From assembly GCA_030647115.1 (NCBI GenBank), contig JAUSJZ010000011.1, positions 1-34,667 of the forward strand: 34,667 bases of DNA, in the 5' to 3' direction. The notes under the pieces were generated by a model. That model was not told the origin of the DNA and did no database searches. It saw only the letters and a list, made by a program, of their open reading frames with translations. Positions 5,131-31,696 of the stretch are shown here, piece after piece. Made by a program: the position numbers and the translations under genes. The DNA comes from a bacterium. GTDB taxonomy: Bacteria > Patescibacteriota > UBA1384 > CAILIB01 > JAUSJZ01. Position 1 is the stretch's first letter; each line of letters starts with the position of its first letter.

Positions 5131-6177
5131 TTAAGAGTCTGACAAGAGCGTCACCGTTCCGCCGGGTTCACGCCGCACTATCATATCGACTTCGGCCTCT
5201 TGTATCAGTTGCCAAAATTGAGCCGGTCCTATATTTAGGTTAGCAAGAATACTTTCAGGCTCAAAACAACCGCGCTGCAAAACACTAGCTAAAGCGCGAT
5301 ATTTTAGAGGGAGCGACTGTACTTGGGGTCGGACATTACAGAACTGAAACCAATCCTCATAATTACAGATAGTGACAGCCCCGGCCGCAATGAGTTGATT
5401 GGAGTAGGCGGCGCTTACTCTGGTAATATCGGCCGGCAGAACAGCCAATGATTTGCTCTGATTCAGGGCATACTCGGCCGTTTTTCTAGTACCAGATTTA
5501 ACGGCCGCCTCTGGTATAAATAGCCAATCAGCCATCGCCGCCATTAACCGGTTGCGCCACCAGAAGTGTAATTTGCACGGTTTGGCCACAGACCAGTATT
5601 CGCTTAAGATCATGGCTCGACCCTGCTTAACCCATTCCTCCAATTCAGCCCGGTGACCAGCGGGATAAATATTGGCCACTCCAAACGGCACCACCGCTAC
5701 CACCCGACCACCGGCGCTGATAGCTGCTCGCAAGGCCAACATATCGATACCATAGGCTAAACCGGAGACCAATACTCGCTCCCGTGACACCAAACGCACT
5801 AATTTCTCGGTCTGTGTCTGTGCGTATTGACTGGGTCGCCGCGGCCCCACGACTACCAGATAAGGACCCGCAATTAATGGCCCCCGCTGCCAGAGCGCCA
5901 GTGGCTTAGGGTCAGCTTCAGACCAGTAATCGGTCAACCAATTTTCGGCTATAAATTGGAATTGCGGCCGAGCATGGCGGTAAACCAGACTTAACCGCTC
6001 AATTTCCGGTAAAATGCTGTGCAACCAATTTTGCTGCGGCCAGTGCGGTAAAACTTTACCCTGACCAATGAGCGCCAATTCTGACCGTGGCACCTTAGCG
6101 ATTACTTCTAAAGCCAGCCCCGGGTTGCACGTACTGGCGTGCAATAAGACAAATTCAATTAGACCTATCTCTTCCAC
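5131..6177 (-). CDS. dprA: DprA/Smf-family DNA-processing protein
   Basis: This 348-residue protein is a DprA homologue. In transformation DprA protects incoming single-stranded DNA and loads RecA. An N-terminal SAM-like region (about 1-90) precedes the Rossmann fold. Recognisable motifs are VVGPRRPS (109-116, where GSRxPS is usual), VSGLAYGID (137-145), SEYW (192-195), FWWRNRLMAAM (205-215, for FPxRNRIIAGL) and EAAVKSGT (223-230). The C-terminal part (about 283-348) looks like the DprA winged helix. The sequence is more divergent than most. It overlaps the mfd-like gene by 13 bases, so the two are probably expressed together. Confidence 0.9.
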   Translation of the reverse strand: MEEIGLIEFVLLHASTCNPGLALEVIAKVPRSELALIGQGKVLPHWPQQNWLHSILPEIERLSLVYRHARPQFQFIAENWLTDYWSEADPKPLALWQRGPLIAGPYLVVVGPRRPSQYAQTQTEKLVRLVSRERVLVSGLAYGIDMLALRAAISAGGRVVAVVPFGVANIYPAGHRAELEEWVKQGRAMILSEYWSVAKPCKLHFWWRNRLMAAMADWLFIPEAAVKSGTRKTAEYALNQSKSLAVLPADITRVSAAYSNQLIAAGAVTICNYEDWFQFCNVRPQVQSLPLKYRALASVLQRGCFEPESILANLNIGPAQFWQLIQEAEVDMIVRREPGGTVTLLSDS

Positions 6178-8057
6178 AAATTAAGCATAGCGTCCGTTAA
6201 ATGAACGGCCGATGACGGCTGCCGCACCAACTCCACCGCCCGTTTCAACAGCCGCCCGTACAGTACCAGACCGATGGCTTCTAAATTACCGTGTTGTCTC
6301 TTGCCAAGCAGAGTACCGGCTCCCCTCAATTCCAGATCCTTCAAGGCGATAGTCCAACCACTGCCTAGCTTGGCACTATCGGCCACAATCTCCAGCCGCT
6401 CGAGTGCCGTTAGGTTTAATGGTCGCTGTTGTCGTTCCTCCCGTTCCCCAATTAATAGATAAGCATAAGCAGTGCGATCTTTACGGCCGACCCGACCTCG
6501 TAGTTGATAAAGGTCAGCTAACCCAAATATTTCGGCCCGTTCAATAATTAAGGTATTGGCATTGGGGTTATCAAGACCGTTTTCGACAATGGAGGTCGAG
6601 ATTAAAATATCCAGCTCATTATTGAAGAAACGGTGCATAATATCGGCCAATTTATTAATGGGAGTCTGCCCGTGCGCGACGGCGTAATGCAAGGTATGCT
6701 TCCCTCTTTTAGCAAGCGATAGCCGGTAGGCTCCTTTCAGATTTTCCTGAAGTCGGCGGACCACTCGCGGCAGACTCTGTACTCGATTGTGGATGTAATA
6801 AATTTGACCACCCCGCGAGCGTTCTTTGATAATTGCCTCTCTGATGAGGGGCCCGTTGTAGGGCCGTACTACCGTCTCTACGCCTCGTCGCTGACCGGGA
6901 GCCGTTTTGATGGTACTCATATTACGCAACCCCGCTAGACCTAAATAAAGAGTTCGGGGAATGGGGGTAGCGGTAACCGACAGTACGTCTAAGTGACTAC
7001 GTAAATTTTTAAAATGTTCTTTGTGTTTGACGCCAAAACGCTGCTCTTCATCAATAATAATGAGACCAATGTCGGCTGTCGGAATATTAGCGGTAAACAG
7101 TTTGTGCGTCCCAATAAAACAATCGGCTGTTAAATCAACTTTGTTGTTCAGACGACTGACCTTGGCTAATTTGATTGGTAATTGAGCAAACCGGGCCGAC
7201 CAGACATCAAAGTGTTGCTCGACCAAAACGGTCGTCGGCGCCAGTAAGATTACCTTTTTTCCGCTGGCCAGTACGGTCGTCGCCGCTCTGATGGCCACTT
7301 CCGTTTTGCCATAACCGACATCGCCGGTCAACAGACGATCCATCGGGCGGCGCTCCTTGATGAGATCTTGGGTCACGTCGGCAATGGAACTTCTTTGATC
7401 GACGGTCAAAGTGTGGGGAAATGAGGCAGCTATAATCTGCTGCCACTCGCGATTCTCGGCGTAGGGTTCTCGCTCTACGACAGCCCTTTTGGCCGCCGTT
7501 ACAATGAGATCTTTAGCAATGCTGTACAGGTCTTCACTGATTCTCTTTTTAGTCTTCTCCCAAGTCTTGGAATAGAGTCTGGTCAACCGGGGGTTTTTGC
7601 GACCGTAGTAAGGCATCAGCTCCGCCTCCCGGTCTTGGGGAAAAGATAGTTGATCGTTGGCGGCGAACAGGAGCGTCAGAAAACTTTTGGGGCGCTGTTG
7701 CCACTGTCTGATACGGCGGCCGACATATTGGGCAATGCCAAATTGGGGGTGGACAACGTACGACTGCGGCATTATCACGCCATCCTCCGTCAATAAGCGA
7801 TTATCCTTAACTGTAAGTTCCGACTGTTTTGTCTTTTGGCCATCACTTATCTGTTCCAGAGACTGACCGAAAAAATCTAATCTAAATAACCGGTTTTCAT
7901 TAACCGGCCATAAAACAAAACGATCGCCACTGACACTGTATTGACCGTAGGTTTCAACGGTCTCACTTCTTTGATAACCGTGGTTAATTAGATACTGTTG
8001 TAGCGTAAAGTACTTTGTTTGGTTGAGAGCAATTTGCAACTGTTCATACTTTTGCAT
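6165..8057 (-). CDS. mfd: Shortened transcription-repair coupling factor (Mfd-like)
   Basis: This 630-residue protein matches the central part of Mfd, which is usually about 1,150 residues. Residues about 20-75 resemble the end of the UvrB-like module (GYQR...GQYSVSGDRF...LDFFGQSLEQI). Residues about 96-160 form a CarD-like RNA-polymerase-interaction domain (VVHPQFGIAQYVGR). The RecG-like translocase follows: Walker A GDVGYGKT (245-252), DEEQRFG (336-342), TATPIPRTL (362-370) and a C-terminal GRVGRKDRTAYAYLL. The protein ends just after the LRGAGTLLGKRQHG region. Thus most of the UvrB-homology region that recruits UvrA and the C-terminal regulatory domain are missing. RecG is an alternative label, but the CarD-like domain argues for Mfd. 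A TTGTCA/TATGTA promoter lies directly upstream. Confidence 0.88.
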   Translation of the reverse strand: MQKYEQLQIALNQTKYFTLQQYLINHGYQRSETVETYGQYSVSGDRFVLWPVNENRLFRLDFFGQSLEQISDGQKTKQSELTVKDNRLLTEDGVIMPQSYVVHPQFGIAQYVGRRIRQWQQRPKSFLTLLFAANDQLSFPQDREAELMPYYGRKNPRLTRLYSKTWEKTKKRISEDLYSIAKDLIVTAAKRAVVEREPYAENREWQQIIAASFPHTLTVDQRSSIADVTQDLIKERRPMDRLLTGDVGYGKTEVAIRAATTVLASGKKVILLAPTTVLVEQHFDVWSARFAQLPIKLAKVSRLNNKVDLTADCFIGTHKLFTANIPTADIGLIIIDEEQRFGVKHKEHFKNLRSHLDVLSVTATPIPRTLYLGLAGLRNMSTIKTAPGQRRGVETVVRPYNGPLIREAIIKERSRGGQIYYIHNRVQSLPRVVRRLQENLKGAYRLSLAKRGKHTLHYAVAHGQTPINKLADIMHRFFNNELDILISTSIVENGLDNPNANTLIIERAEIFGLADLYQLRGRVGRKDRTAYAYLLIGEREERQQRPLNLTALERLEIVADSAKLGSGWTIALKDLELRGAGTLLGKRQHGNLEAIGLVLYGRLLKRAVELVRQPSSAVHLTDAMLNLWKR

Positions 8058-8092: not shown

Positions 8093-8120
8093 GCGGTACT
8101 CGAAATGTTTAACTTTACAC

Positions 8121-8227
8121 AAAGAGTCGTTTGCTCTGCCAATGCTCGCGATGTTTTTGCCCCTCCTTTGGCATCGCACGAGCTAGGTCTTACCTAGCTC
8201 AAGCATTGGTAGATAGAACGACTCTTT
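8121..8227 (-). repeat. Branched inverted-repeat element after rplK
   Basis: Outer arms AAAGAGTCGTT (8121-8131) and AACGACTCTTT (8217-8227) pair perfectly. In the same register CCAATGCT (8139-8146) pairs with AGCATTGG (8202-8209). Inside are two further hairpins: GCGATG/CATCGC (8148-8153 with 8172-8177) and GAGCTAGGT/ACCTAGCTC (8180-8188 with 8192-8200, 3-nt loop). The whole folds as a three-way junction. It begins at the rplK stop codon, so it would form the 3' end of the rplU-secE-nusG-rplK transcript. It may be a complex terminator, an RNA-processing signal, a ribosomal-protein binding site or a MITE-like insertion. The RNA 3' flank has only a short U run. Confidence 0.65.
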
Positions 8228-8649
8228 TATTCAACTTTCACACCCATGCTACGAGCCGTACCGGCAATAATTTTCTTGGCCTGTTCAATGTCGCGCGCGC
8301 TTAAGTCAGACATTTTCTTAGTAGCGATGGTCTCAAGGTCATTTTGCTTCAGGGTACCGACTGTCTCTTTCTTTTGATCGGCCGCCCCCTTCTCTTTTTT
8401 AATGGCCTCTTTGATCAAAACCGCTGCCGGTGGTGATTTTAAAATAAAGGTAAAAGAGCGGTCTTTGAAGATGGTCACCACAACCGGTATAATTGTACCC
8501 ATTTGTTCTTTAGTCTGTTCGTTAAACTGGGTGACGAAACCGTTCATATCAATACCCAGTGGCCCTAAAGCCGTACCAACCGGGGGGGCCGGGGTCGCTT
8601 TACCCCCGGGAATTTGAATTTTAACCTGTGCTTGTATCTCTTTAGCCAT
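8227..8649 (-). CDS. rplK: 50S ribosomal protein L11
   Basis: This 140-residue protein has the normal L11 length and a conserved N-terminus (VKIQIPGGKATPAPPVGTAL, with the Pro-rich hinge). The C-terminal RNA-binding domain ends ARDIEQAKKIIAGTARSMGV. L11 binds the GTPase-associated region of 23S rRNA and helps translation factors act. It follows nusG after two bases, the usual secE-nusG-rplK order. The usual next gene, rplA (L1), is absent here; a structured element and the mfd-like gene follow instead. Confidence 0.98.
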   Translation of the reverse strand: MAKEIQAQVKIQIPGGKATPAPPVGTALGPLGIDMNGFVTQFNEQTKEQMGTIIPVVVTIFKDRSFTFILKSPPAAVLIKEAIKKEKGAADQKKETVGTLKQNDLETIATKKMSDLSARDIEQAKKIIAGTARSMGVKVE

Positions 8650-9250: not shown

Positions 9251-9442
9251 TTAGGTGATGATTGTTTTAATAATATATTGTAACCCGGTATCAATAGCCG
9301 CTACCACTAGGGTGGCCACCGAGACACTTAGTATCACCAGCCAAAAACTGCGTAAAAAGCGTTTTTTACTCGGCCACTGTACTTTTTTAAATTCGGTTCT
9401 TACCCCCTTAAGATAGGTAGATAAAGAAGCAAAAGGCTTCAT
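9251..9442 (-). CDS. secE: Preprotein translocase subunit SecE
   Basis: This 63-residue protein is the short single-span SecE of most bacteria. A cytoplasmic amphipathic stretch (YLKGVRTEFKKVQWPSKKRF, with the conserved WPSK core) precedes one membrane helix (about 33-57). It clamps SecY in the SecYEG channel. Its ATG overlaps the rplU TGA (ATGA). SecE next to NusG and L11 is conserved across bacteria, which supports the call. Confidence 0.95.
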   Translation of the reverse strand: MKPFASLSTYLKGVRTEFKKVQWPSKKRFLRSFWLVILSVSVATLVVAAIDTGLQYIIKTIIT

Positions 9443-9747
9443 GCGATATTGGTAATCTGTATCAAGGTTACGTCTTGTCGGTGACCCATGGTTCTATGAT
9501 ACCGTTTTTTTGACTTAAATTTGATCACCATTATCTTTTTGGTGCGTTTCTTGGCCACCACTTTAGCCGTTACCTCGGTTTTGACAACCGGCGTACCGAC
9601 CTTGGTTTTAGCGCCATCGATGACCGCCAAAACTTCAGGTAGCTTGAACTCCTCACCCTCGGCTTGAGTCAGTTTGGCCACCTCTAAAGTGTCACCGGCG
9701 GCGGCTAAATACTGTTTGCCACCCAAACGTATTACAACCTGTTTCAT
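9439..9747 (-). CDS. rplU: 50S ribosomal protein L21
   Basis: This 102-residue protein matches L21 along its length: an N-terminal GGKQYLAAAGDTL, a middle VGTPVV, and a conserved C-terminus (KIMVIKFKSKKRYHRTMGHRQ). L21 binds 23S rRNA near L20. Its usual partner rpmA (L27) is not next to it. Instead it heads secE-nusG-rplK, an uncommon order. A TAGACA/TAGGTT promoter lies just upstream, and its -35 box overlaps the end of the 9782-9949 palindrome. Confidence 0.95.
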   Translation of the reverse strand: MKQVVIRLGGKQYLAAAGDTLEVAKLTQAEGEEFKLPEVLAVIDGAKTKVGTPVVKTEVTAKVVAKKRTKKIMVIKFKSKKRYHRTMGHRQDVTLIQITNIA

Positions 9748-9755
9748 ACTTATTT

Positions 9756-9784
9756 AACCTATCAGGTTACAGATTACTTGTCTA
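9756..9784 (-). promoter_or_regulatory. Promoter of the rplU-secE-nusG-rplK group
   Basis: On the minus strand TAGACA (9779-9784) and TAGGTT (9756-9761) are separated by exactly 17 bases. Eight bases lie between the -10 box and the rplU ATG, so the leader would be about two nucleotides long. Part of the -35 box is the outer CTAG of the adjoining palindromic element. Confidence 0.45.
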
Positions 9785-9949
9785 GACACGCATTTCGCAC
9801 TTAGCCATTGAAGGCAGATTGCATCCAGAGCGAGCGAAAGCTTTCAATTTGAGTGAGGTGTAACAAATTGTTACATCGAACGAAGAGTGAGAGCTTGCAG
9901 CCGTTCTGGTGTGATCTGACGCGATGGAAAAGTGCGAAATGCGTGCTAG
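9782..9949. repeat. 168-bp near-palindrome with CTAG flanks (MITE-like or giant hairpin)
   Basis: Perfect 16-bp terminal arms CACGCATTTCGCACTT (9787-9802) and AAGTGCGAAATGCGTG (9930-9945) surround an imperfect inverted repeat that continues to the centre. There TGTAACAA-A-TTGTTACA (9859-9875) pairs perfectly around one base. Hand alignment of the middle parts gives roughly 60% pairing (for example CAGAT, CCAGA and AAGCT blocks). CTAG occurs at both edges (9782-9785 and 9946-9949), as a 4-bp target duplication would leave, but CTAG is itself a palindrome so this is not proof. The right CTAG supplies the TAG stop of rodA. It encodes no convincing protein. It may be a non-autonomous mobile element or a structured RNA/terminator after rodA. 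Confidence 0.7.
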
Positions 9950-11061
9950 AGAATAATGCGCTGGTAACGCACCACGACGCTTTGTACAATACCGAGCAAA
10001 ATTAAGTTAGTCAACAAAGATGAACCACCGTAACTCATTAGGGGTAGAGTGATGCCTGTCACCGGCAATAGTTGGATATTCATACCGACGTTTACTACTA
10101 CCTGAACGATAAACAGAGCCGCCACCCCAACACAGAACAGCATACTGAAGTCATCTTGGGCCAAGCGGGCCGCCGTCAGTATTTTGGTAATCAGTAAACC
10201 GTAGATAAAGAGGATAAAGACCGAACCGACAAAACCCCAAGATTCGGCGATTGAGGCAAAGATGAAGTCGGTGTGGGATACCGGTAAGAAATTTAACTGT
10301 GACTGACTACCGAAGCCTAAACCGCGACCGGTAACACCGCCCGAACCGACGGCGATAACCGCCTGCAAGACGTTATAACCGGCCCCACTGGGGTCAGCCG
10401 CCGGGTTGATGAAGGTCTCAATGCGGGCCCGCTGGTAATTTTTGATCAAAGTGGCAAATGGGCCTATTTTAGACCAAGTCATTAAAACGACCGCGGTTAA
10501 GGAAATTAGAATGGTGCCGATGACCAACCATTGTCTCTTATTAAGACCGGCGTGAGCCGTCATTATAAAACCAATCAAACCGATGGTCAGCGCTGAACCC
10601 AAGTCTGGTTCTTGCATGACCAAGATAACCGGTAACAACACCATGGCACCGACCATCAAAAGGCGTCTAGAATGGATACGATGAATTCTGTCGGCAAAGA
10701 CAGTCGCCAACAGACAGATTAGTGCTAATTTGGCTAATTCACTCGGTTGAAACTGAAAAAAGCCTAATTCAATCCAACGTTTGGCCCCGAATGAGGAGGT
10801 GCCAATAAGCCGTACCAAAAACAGGCTGGCAATAGCAATCAGGTAGATTAGCCACGACCAGGTCTTGATAGCCCGATAATCGAAAAAGCTGAAGCTAAAA
10901 TAAAATATCAACCCAATACCAAGAGAGATAAGCTGTTTCACAGCCAAAGTGGCTCCCAGTGTAGTTAAGGTGATGGAATAGATCATTACTACCCCACCCA
11001 CCGCCAAAAACAGTGGTAGTAAAAAGAGCCAGATATCGAACGTTTTAAACTTAGACCACAT
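9946..11061 (-). CDS. rodA: RodA-type SEDS peptidoglycan polymerase
   Basis: This 371-residue polytopic membrane protein belongs to the SEDS family (RodA/FtsW). About ten hydrophobic spans are visible. Conserved blocks are FQPSELAKLALI, PDLGSALT (catalytic-loop Asp region), GSGGVTGRGLGFGSQSQLNFLPVSHTDFIFA and the C-terminal PVTGITLPLMSYGGSSLL. SEDS proteins polymerise glycan strands from lipid II with a class B penicillin-binding protein. RodA (elongation) is preferred over FtsW because of the FLPVSHTDFIFA and length, but the two are hard to separate without a tree. Its ATG shares one base with the ileS stop (TAATG). The 3' end touches the palindromic element. Confidence 0.92.
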   Translation of the reverse strand: MWSKFKTFDIWLFLLPLFLAVGGVVMIYSITLTTLGATLAVKQLISLGIGLIFYFSFSFFDYRAIKTWSWLIYLIAIASLFLVRLIGTSSFGAKRWIELGFFQFQPSELAKLALICLLATVFADRIHRIHSRRLLMVGAMVLLPVILVMQEPDLGSALTIGLIGFIMTAHAGLNKRQWLVIGTILISLTAVVLMTWSKIGPFATLIKNYQRARIETFINPAADPSGAGYNVLQAVIAVGSGGVTGRGLGFGSQSQLNFLPVSHTDFIFASIAESWGFVGSVFILFIYGLLITKILTAARLAQDDFSMLFCVGVAALFIVQVVVNVGMNIQLLPVTGITLPLMSYGGSSLLTNLILLGIVQSVVVRYQRIIL

Positions 11062-31569: not shown

Positions 31570-31656
31570 GGGTCGGTAGCGAAGTGGTCAAACGCATCAG
31601 ACTGTAAATCTGACGGCCTCGTGCCTTCGTAGGTTCGACTCCTACCCGGCCCACCA
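31570..31656 (+). tRNA. tRNA-Tyr(GUA)
   Basis: An 87-nt tRNA with a long variable arm: acceptor GGGTCGG/CCGGCCC, D-stem GCG/CGC, anticodon arm TCAGA-CTGTAAA-TCTGA (anticodon GTA), variable arm CGGCCTCGTGCCTTC, T-arm GTAGG-TTCGACT-CCTAC, discriminator A and an encoded CCA. The long variable arm is normal for bacterial tRNA-Tyr. Confidence 0.97.
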
Positions 31657-31657
31657 A

Positions 31658-31696
31658 GCAAAAACAGGCATCAAGCGATGCCTGTTTTTGCTTTTT
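31658..31696. terminator. Strong bidirectional terminator
   Basis: GCAAAAACAGGCATC (31658-31672), loop AAGC, GATGCCTGTTTTTGC (31677-31691), then TTTTT. The 15-bp stem is perfect. It ends the tRNA transcript on the plus strand. Its far end overlaps the TAA of the minus-strand gene at 31695, and the A-rich left arm provides U residues for that direction. Confidence 0.93.

Follow-up and report, generated by a model that had tools for sequence, protein, structure and literature searches.

Recognition of REP/REPIN sequences with RAYT is strand-specific, and REPINs are linked to HUH/Y1 transposases and to single-stranded DNA and are not known to leave a target duplication. REP/REPIN sequences are imperfect hairpins dispersed between genes (PMC3116915), and Tn3-derived TIMEs (PMC4133298) are non-autonomous elements bounded by inverted repeats from which mosaic transposons arise. 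ERIC and Correia (NEMIS) elements are short, multicopy, intergenic imperfect palindromes, the transcripts of which fold and can be processed, and they are thought to be mobilised in trans (PMC10969869). QMITE2 of Coxiella burnetii possesses terminal repeats and is flanked by direct repeats; a strong fold is predicted for its transcript, and it is often located downstream of ORFs (PMC10969869). Here we describe a near-palindrome in a window of 34,667 nucleotides (the whole stretch of DNA analysed, contig JAUSJZ010000011.1 of assembly GCA_030647115.1) from a bacterium of the Patescibacteriota. We read it, with good confidence, as a 159-bp MITE with a strand-specific, conserved hairpin core, which most likely acts single-stranded and serves the element.

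In its working, the window element is most like ERIC, Correia and QMITE, whose transcripts fold (PMC10969869). Unlike ERIC and Correia, however, it has different ends and a 5-bp target duplication, and its conserved part is the interior, with defined loops, which is common to different-ended elements throughout the phylum. QMITE2 has direct repeats of 7-9 bp and terminal inverted repeats (TIRs) of 23-29 bp (PMC10969869), as against 5 bp and 16 bp here, and it lacks a multi-genome covarying core common to other MITEs, such as the window element has. REP/REPIN sequences are similar in being dispersed, intergenic, imperfect hairpins, but the lack of target duplication that marks them is not seen in the window family, which has clear 5-bp and 4-bp duplications. 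TIMEs are likewise non-autonomous, mosaic inverted-repeat elements, but no common end sequence was identified, and what is shared here is the interior, not the ends. Integron attC sites were also considered and rejected; copies are scattered rather than placed in cassette arrays and, judged by eye, have no consistent attC-like end motif. Our search of the literature, which does not cover all of it, found no paper on MITEs in Patescibacteria/CPR.

The original prediction had described a 168-bp near-palindrome between rodA and rplU, with 16-bp perfect arms, an 8-bp perfect centre and CTAG at both edges, and all of these are present. The palindrome is confirmed by its sequence, by a full-length match to its own reverse complement (73% identity, E=1.3e-15) and by the DNA fold of positions 9770-9962, which reaches -51.7 kcal/mol compared with -23.2 +/- 2.8 in dinucleotide shuffles (z = -10); its centre reads TGTAACAA a TTGTTACA. 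The CTAG edges, however, are four of the five bases of a direct repeat, CTAGA, and look inverted because CTAG is palindromic. Since the flanks are a direct 5-bp repeat, the element proper is the 159 bp between them (Table 1). When the flanks are rejoined with a single CTAGA, the stop codon of rodA and the hexamer TAGACA ahead of rplU both remain unchanged, and therefore neither was created by the insertion. Thus, the right-hand repeat does contain the rodA stop, as had been proposed, but the insertion did not supply it, and the idea that the insertion had shaped both neighbouring genes is not supported. The left CTAG as a -35 box of rplU is at best weak, as it is not among the sigma-70 sites of a consensus scan. 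The sole overlapping ORF of at least 60 aa is a 62-aa frame extending into rodA. Homologues of rodA are present in all 99 relatives searched, and the order rodA-rplU is kept in relatives, those of the same order included, the element being absent from those junctions. Two further inverted repeats were observed in the window. One, at 8106-8242, between a 630-aa helicase-like ORF (6165-8057) and rplK, consists of 41-nt arms that are 73% complementary and 55 nt apart, and gave no core-model match in the window scan. The other, at 31656-31693, is a perfect 17-bp inverted repeat with a 4-nt loop directly after a tRNA gene (31570-31653), and is probably an ordinary terminator.

Table 1. Features of the locus in window coordinates; for the element, + denotes the folding strand of the conserved hairpin.
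Feature	Position	Strand	Basis
rplU (ribosomal protein L21)	9439-9747	minus	ORF; next gene downstream of rodA
Left target-site duplication CTAGA	9782-9786	unstranded	Sequence; 5-bp duplications in relatives
MITE, 159 bp	9787-9945	+	Relatives with unrelated flanks; end pairs in several genomes
Left terminal inverted repeat CACGCATTTCGCACTT	9787-9802	+	16-bp perfect arm; sequence, end pairs elsewhere
Conserved hairpin core, about 98 nt	9817-9916	+	Match to covariance model R2, 80 bits, E=5.8e-21 (such E-values are rough; R2 was built from 28 sequences, the window core among them)
Loop motif GAGCGAAA, internal loop 1, 5' side	9832-9839	+	Alignments
Purine internal loop 2, 5' side, GAGTGA (GAnnGA)	9851-9856	+	Alignments
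Purine internal loop 2, 3' side, GAACGA (GAnnGA)	9878-9883	+	Alignments
Loop motif GCAGCC, internal loop 1, 3' side	9897-9902	+	Alignments
Right terminal inverted repeat	9930-9945	-	16-bp perfect arm; sequence, end pairs elsewhere
Right target-site duplication CTAGA, holding the rodA stop codon (minus)	9946-9950	unstranded	Sequence
rodA	9946-11061	minus	ORF; element immediately past its stop codon

The element is mobile, and the suggestion that it is a MITE is borne out: related elements elsewhere share its ends and interior, differ in their flanks and have target duplications. A DNA search found no second full copy in its own genome. Paired, inverted CACGCATTTCGCACTT ends occur in G040 (Berkelbacteria, the class of the window), G137 (CG2_30_37_16), G206 (Howlettbacteria) and G399 (a Saccharibacteria MAG), and single or degenerate end pairs in G037 and G189; the class of a genome is here the grouping used in the search, except for four contigs with organism names. 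G399 holds five copies with these ends, and the four that are full-length are the nearest relatives of the window element, being 77-82% identical to it over the whole length with unrelated flanks. G551, placed in the same class as G399, is full of such elements, with multiple copies at sites that have unrelated flanks. Left and right flanks were compared in 44 elements from 8 genomes, picked by their ends alone. Exact 5-bp repeats flank 24 of them, compared with 0.3 expected from swapped flanks, and 32 when one mismatch is allowed (2.3 expected), with no peak at 4 bp (2/44 exact) or 6 bp (0/44). The duplicated sequence varies among elements, and the 4-bp CTAG target of IS5 type that had been proposed is thus contradicted in both length and sequence. 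A non-exhaustive search, which covered about 765 kb of G551 and the stretches between end pairs there, found no transposase with these ends, and the surroundings of G551 ORFs showed only ordinary genes or MITE-MITE pairs rather than an IS-like structure. Matches to the bare ends in viral contigs were chance-like and without the core. By its short length (under 500 bp), inverted ends, lack of coding capacity, target duplication and multicopy nature, the window palindrome is a MITE, the autonomous partner of which was not found; prokaryotic MITEs without a known autonomous partner exist. In G137 (L090:1501-1837), an element with CACGCATTTCGCACTT-like ends appears to be split by a different miniature element with GGACTTACGCAGTTG ends, i.e., a nested insertion.

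The structure of the hairpin core is conserved. In alignment A2, made from 18 relatives with no structural input, compensatory double changes occur at 29 of the 56 predicted pairs, and 95.5% of cells pair, compared with 31-42% with slid partners; in a 28-sequence core alignment, 19/22 pairs have compensatory changes (covariation 0.603 vs 0.12-0.18 slid), and in a structural alignment of 54 members every one of the 22 modelled pairs has double changes (0.711 vs 0.10-0.16 slid), where the alignment rows are related by descent, A2 and A3 draw heavily on G551, and A4 was made by aligning to its own model. The core is interrupted by two internal loops (Table 1), of which the purine loop may form tandem G.A pairs. 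No Rfam family matches the element. Covarying arms and a mobile element had been presented as exclusive alternatives, and both hold here, a mobile element with strong covariation.

The fold is confined to one strand in its preference. Strand bias was counted at non-Watson-Crick positions in a strand-symmetric self-alignment, and among the A2 relatives G.U exceeds A.C by 146:18 and purine-purine exceeds pyrimidine-pyrimidine by 172:25 (7:0 and 10:0, respectively, in the window element alone). The strand is purine-rich (A+G 1591 vs C+T 1225), and all 18 A2 members are more stable on the window + strand, by 10-41 kcal/mol. In the diverse set, the same strand is the more stable one in 52/53 members, and 52/53 have the excess of G.U plus purine-purine positions; the total is 53 since one of the 54 rows is another row read on its reverse strand. 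Elements with the same ends and other interiors (G137, G111, G189, G206, G040) show no strand bias, and the core model gave no match on same-end loci from G040, G137, G189, G206 and G037.

The core is also found between other ends. G551 has many homologous cores enclosed by CTGGACTTACGCAAAA ends, with a 4-bp target duplication (39/63 exact), and 61 of these 63 elements fold better on the homologous strand, with G.U : A.C of 311:84. A full-element covariance model found more relatives with other ends in G024 (two), G037, G016 and G018, which share the largely unpaired GAGCGAAA, GAnnGA/GAnnGA and GCAGCC at near-fixed spacing. R2 finds the core in at least 39 of 380 sampled Patescibacteria genomes, in elements with differing ends, and this is a lower bound because only ten candidates per genome were scored. 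A fuller search counted at least 139 core copies in G551, 26 in G111, 22 in G357, 18 in G007 and 4 in the genome of the window. Besides the window core, that genome (G000) has three others (C41:2017-2115, C37:1221-1319 and C43:3339-3435, or L269, L270 and L271), which were found by R2 only; they have ends GAACCGGTTGCG... / GAACCTGCC..., are 41-44% identical to the window core, and group in the tree with a genome of the window's own order. The window core groups with G399 and G383, apart from these three, so that horizontal arrival is the simplest reading, and the window copy was probably acquired from outside.

Several other observations were made on these elements. G551 (about 0.8 Mb; L193-L232) has at least two end classes, as well as 68-bp deletion derivatives and some elements that other sequence has made larger. 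In G016:C36 (L236:1501-1661), a core hairpin separates the 3' end of 23S rRNA from 5S rRNA and is sense to the rRNA genes. A further end class, AGAGCCTGT(T/C)..., is represented by L285 and L286 (G007), L272-L279 (G357) and L282-L284 (G137); its hairpin is longer, and motifs like those of the inner loop seem to repeat further out along the stem. Core copies lie less than about 200 bp from contig ends in G001 (C37, C46, C68, C91, C126) and G137 (C6, C28, C37), as expected if near-identical recent repeats break assemblies, and since several copies are so placed, the core probably explains some of the assembly breaks in MAGs.

Orientation of the hairpin follows neither host genes nor replication. 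In tandem settings of the diverse set, 14 copies are sense and 14 antisense to the neighbouring genes, as judged by simple ORF calls around the copies; G551 alone gave 38 antisense vs 20 sense in one setting out of the several that were used (p=0.025). The main contig of G357 spans 826 kb, and GC skew puts its origin near 145 kb and its terminus near 635 kb; there the folding strand is leading in 11 copies and lagging in 10, as assigned by hand. There being no link to gene direction or replication strand, the conserved strand belongs to the element and not to the site, and the hairpin therefore appears to serve the element.

We propose that a non-autonomous DNA transposon inserted into CTAGA at the 3' end of rodA, duplicating five bases, and that a DDE-type transposase, as the ends and the duplication suggest, would act in trans on the 16-bp ends. 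The core would be transcribed and selected as RNA, with compensatory changes and conserved internal loops keeping the + strand fold in elements with different ends. It would act when single-stranded, preferably as RNA of the + strand and less likely as single-stranded DNA, and the hairpin would serve the life cycle of the element, or the tolerance of the host for it, rather than the neighbouring genes. We infer that the core functions as RNA because the G.U pairs, purine internal loops and compensatory stems together match the pattern of structured RNA, and because neither replication strand is preferred. An RNA role in host transcripts would be expected to favour sense orientation, yet the folding strand of the window copy is antisense to both rodA and rplU. 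A wider reading, to which we give nearly as much belief as disbelief, is that small structured RNAs, forming a phylum-wide family, ride as MITE cargo, have been swapped between unrelated ends and at least two transposition systems (with 5-bp and 4-bp duplications), and have been passed between classes.

Among the alternatives, one that we consider unlikely is that the hairpin is folded DNA of one strand, recognised in replication or transposition as in HUH/Y1 elements. A strand-specific fold independent of host transcription would suit this, and G.T and tandem G.A pairs are also found in, and tolerated by, DNA hairpins. To our knowledge, however, HUH elements make no target duplications or inverted ends, both of which are clear here, and the 11:10 distribution in G357 argues against a replication-strand role. 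It is quite improbable that the window palindrome is a plain MITE, in which the interior is a decayed, unconstrained end-to-end palindrome of a transposon and the hairpin has no role. All the evidence for mobility would fit this, as would the unbiased elements with the same ends and unrelated interiors, but the covariation of the core, its conserved unpaired motifs and its strand bias recur in 39/380 genomes and in elements with other ends. We give very little credence to a host regulatory hairpin, i.e., a terminator or RNase III site separating the rodA and rplU transcripts. The element does lie between two co-directional genes, and its minus strand still folds (-61.8 kcal/mol), but the transcript-end hairpin offered in the original prediction is not upheld: no T-run follows at either edge, and a terminator scan gave no match at the element. 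Moreover, relatives have the same junction without it, the strand that folds better runs antisense to the operon, and copies are scattered over many unrelated sites without favouring either orientation. It is hardly credible that mutation (C to T and A to G changes confined to one strand), rather than selection for pairing, left the strand bias, for although a deamination-exposed strand would gather G.U pairs, deamination does not produce compensatory double changes at most pairs, the purine-purine excess and purine-rich strand are unlike its outcome, and same-end elements with other interiors are unbiased.

The window palindrome is thus settled as an inserted element that leaves both neighbouring genes intact. 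MITEs are usually viewed as decayed transposons with a little-constrained interior, whereas here the interior is conserved on one strand across a phylum of reduced genomes, and it is the ends that vary. If the core is transcribed, Patescibacteria would possess a large RNA family that has gone unrecorded, and this would suggest that selection keeps the RNA and not the ends. This makes the role of a mobile RNA hairpin testable in cells with genomes of about 1 Mb.
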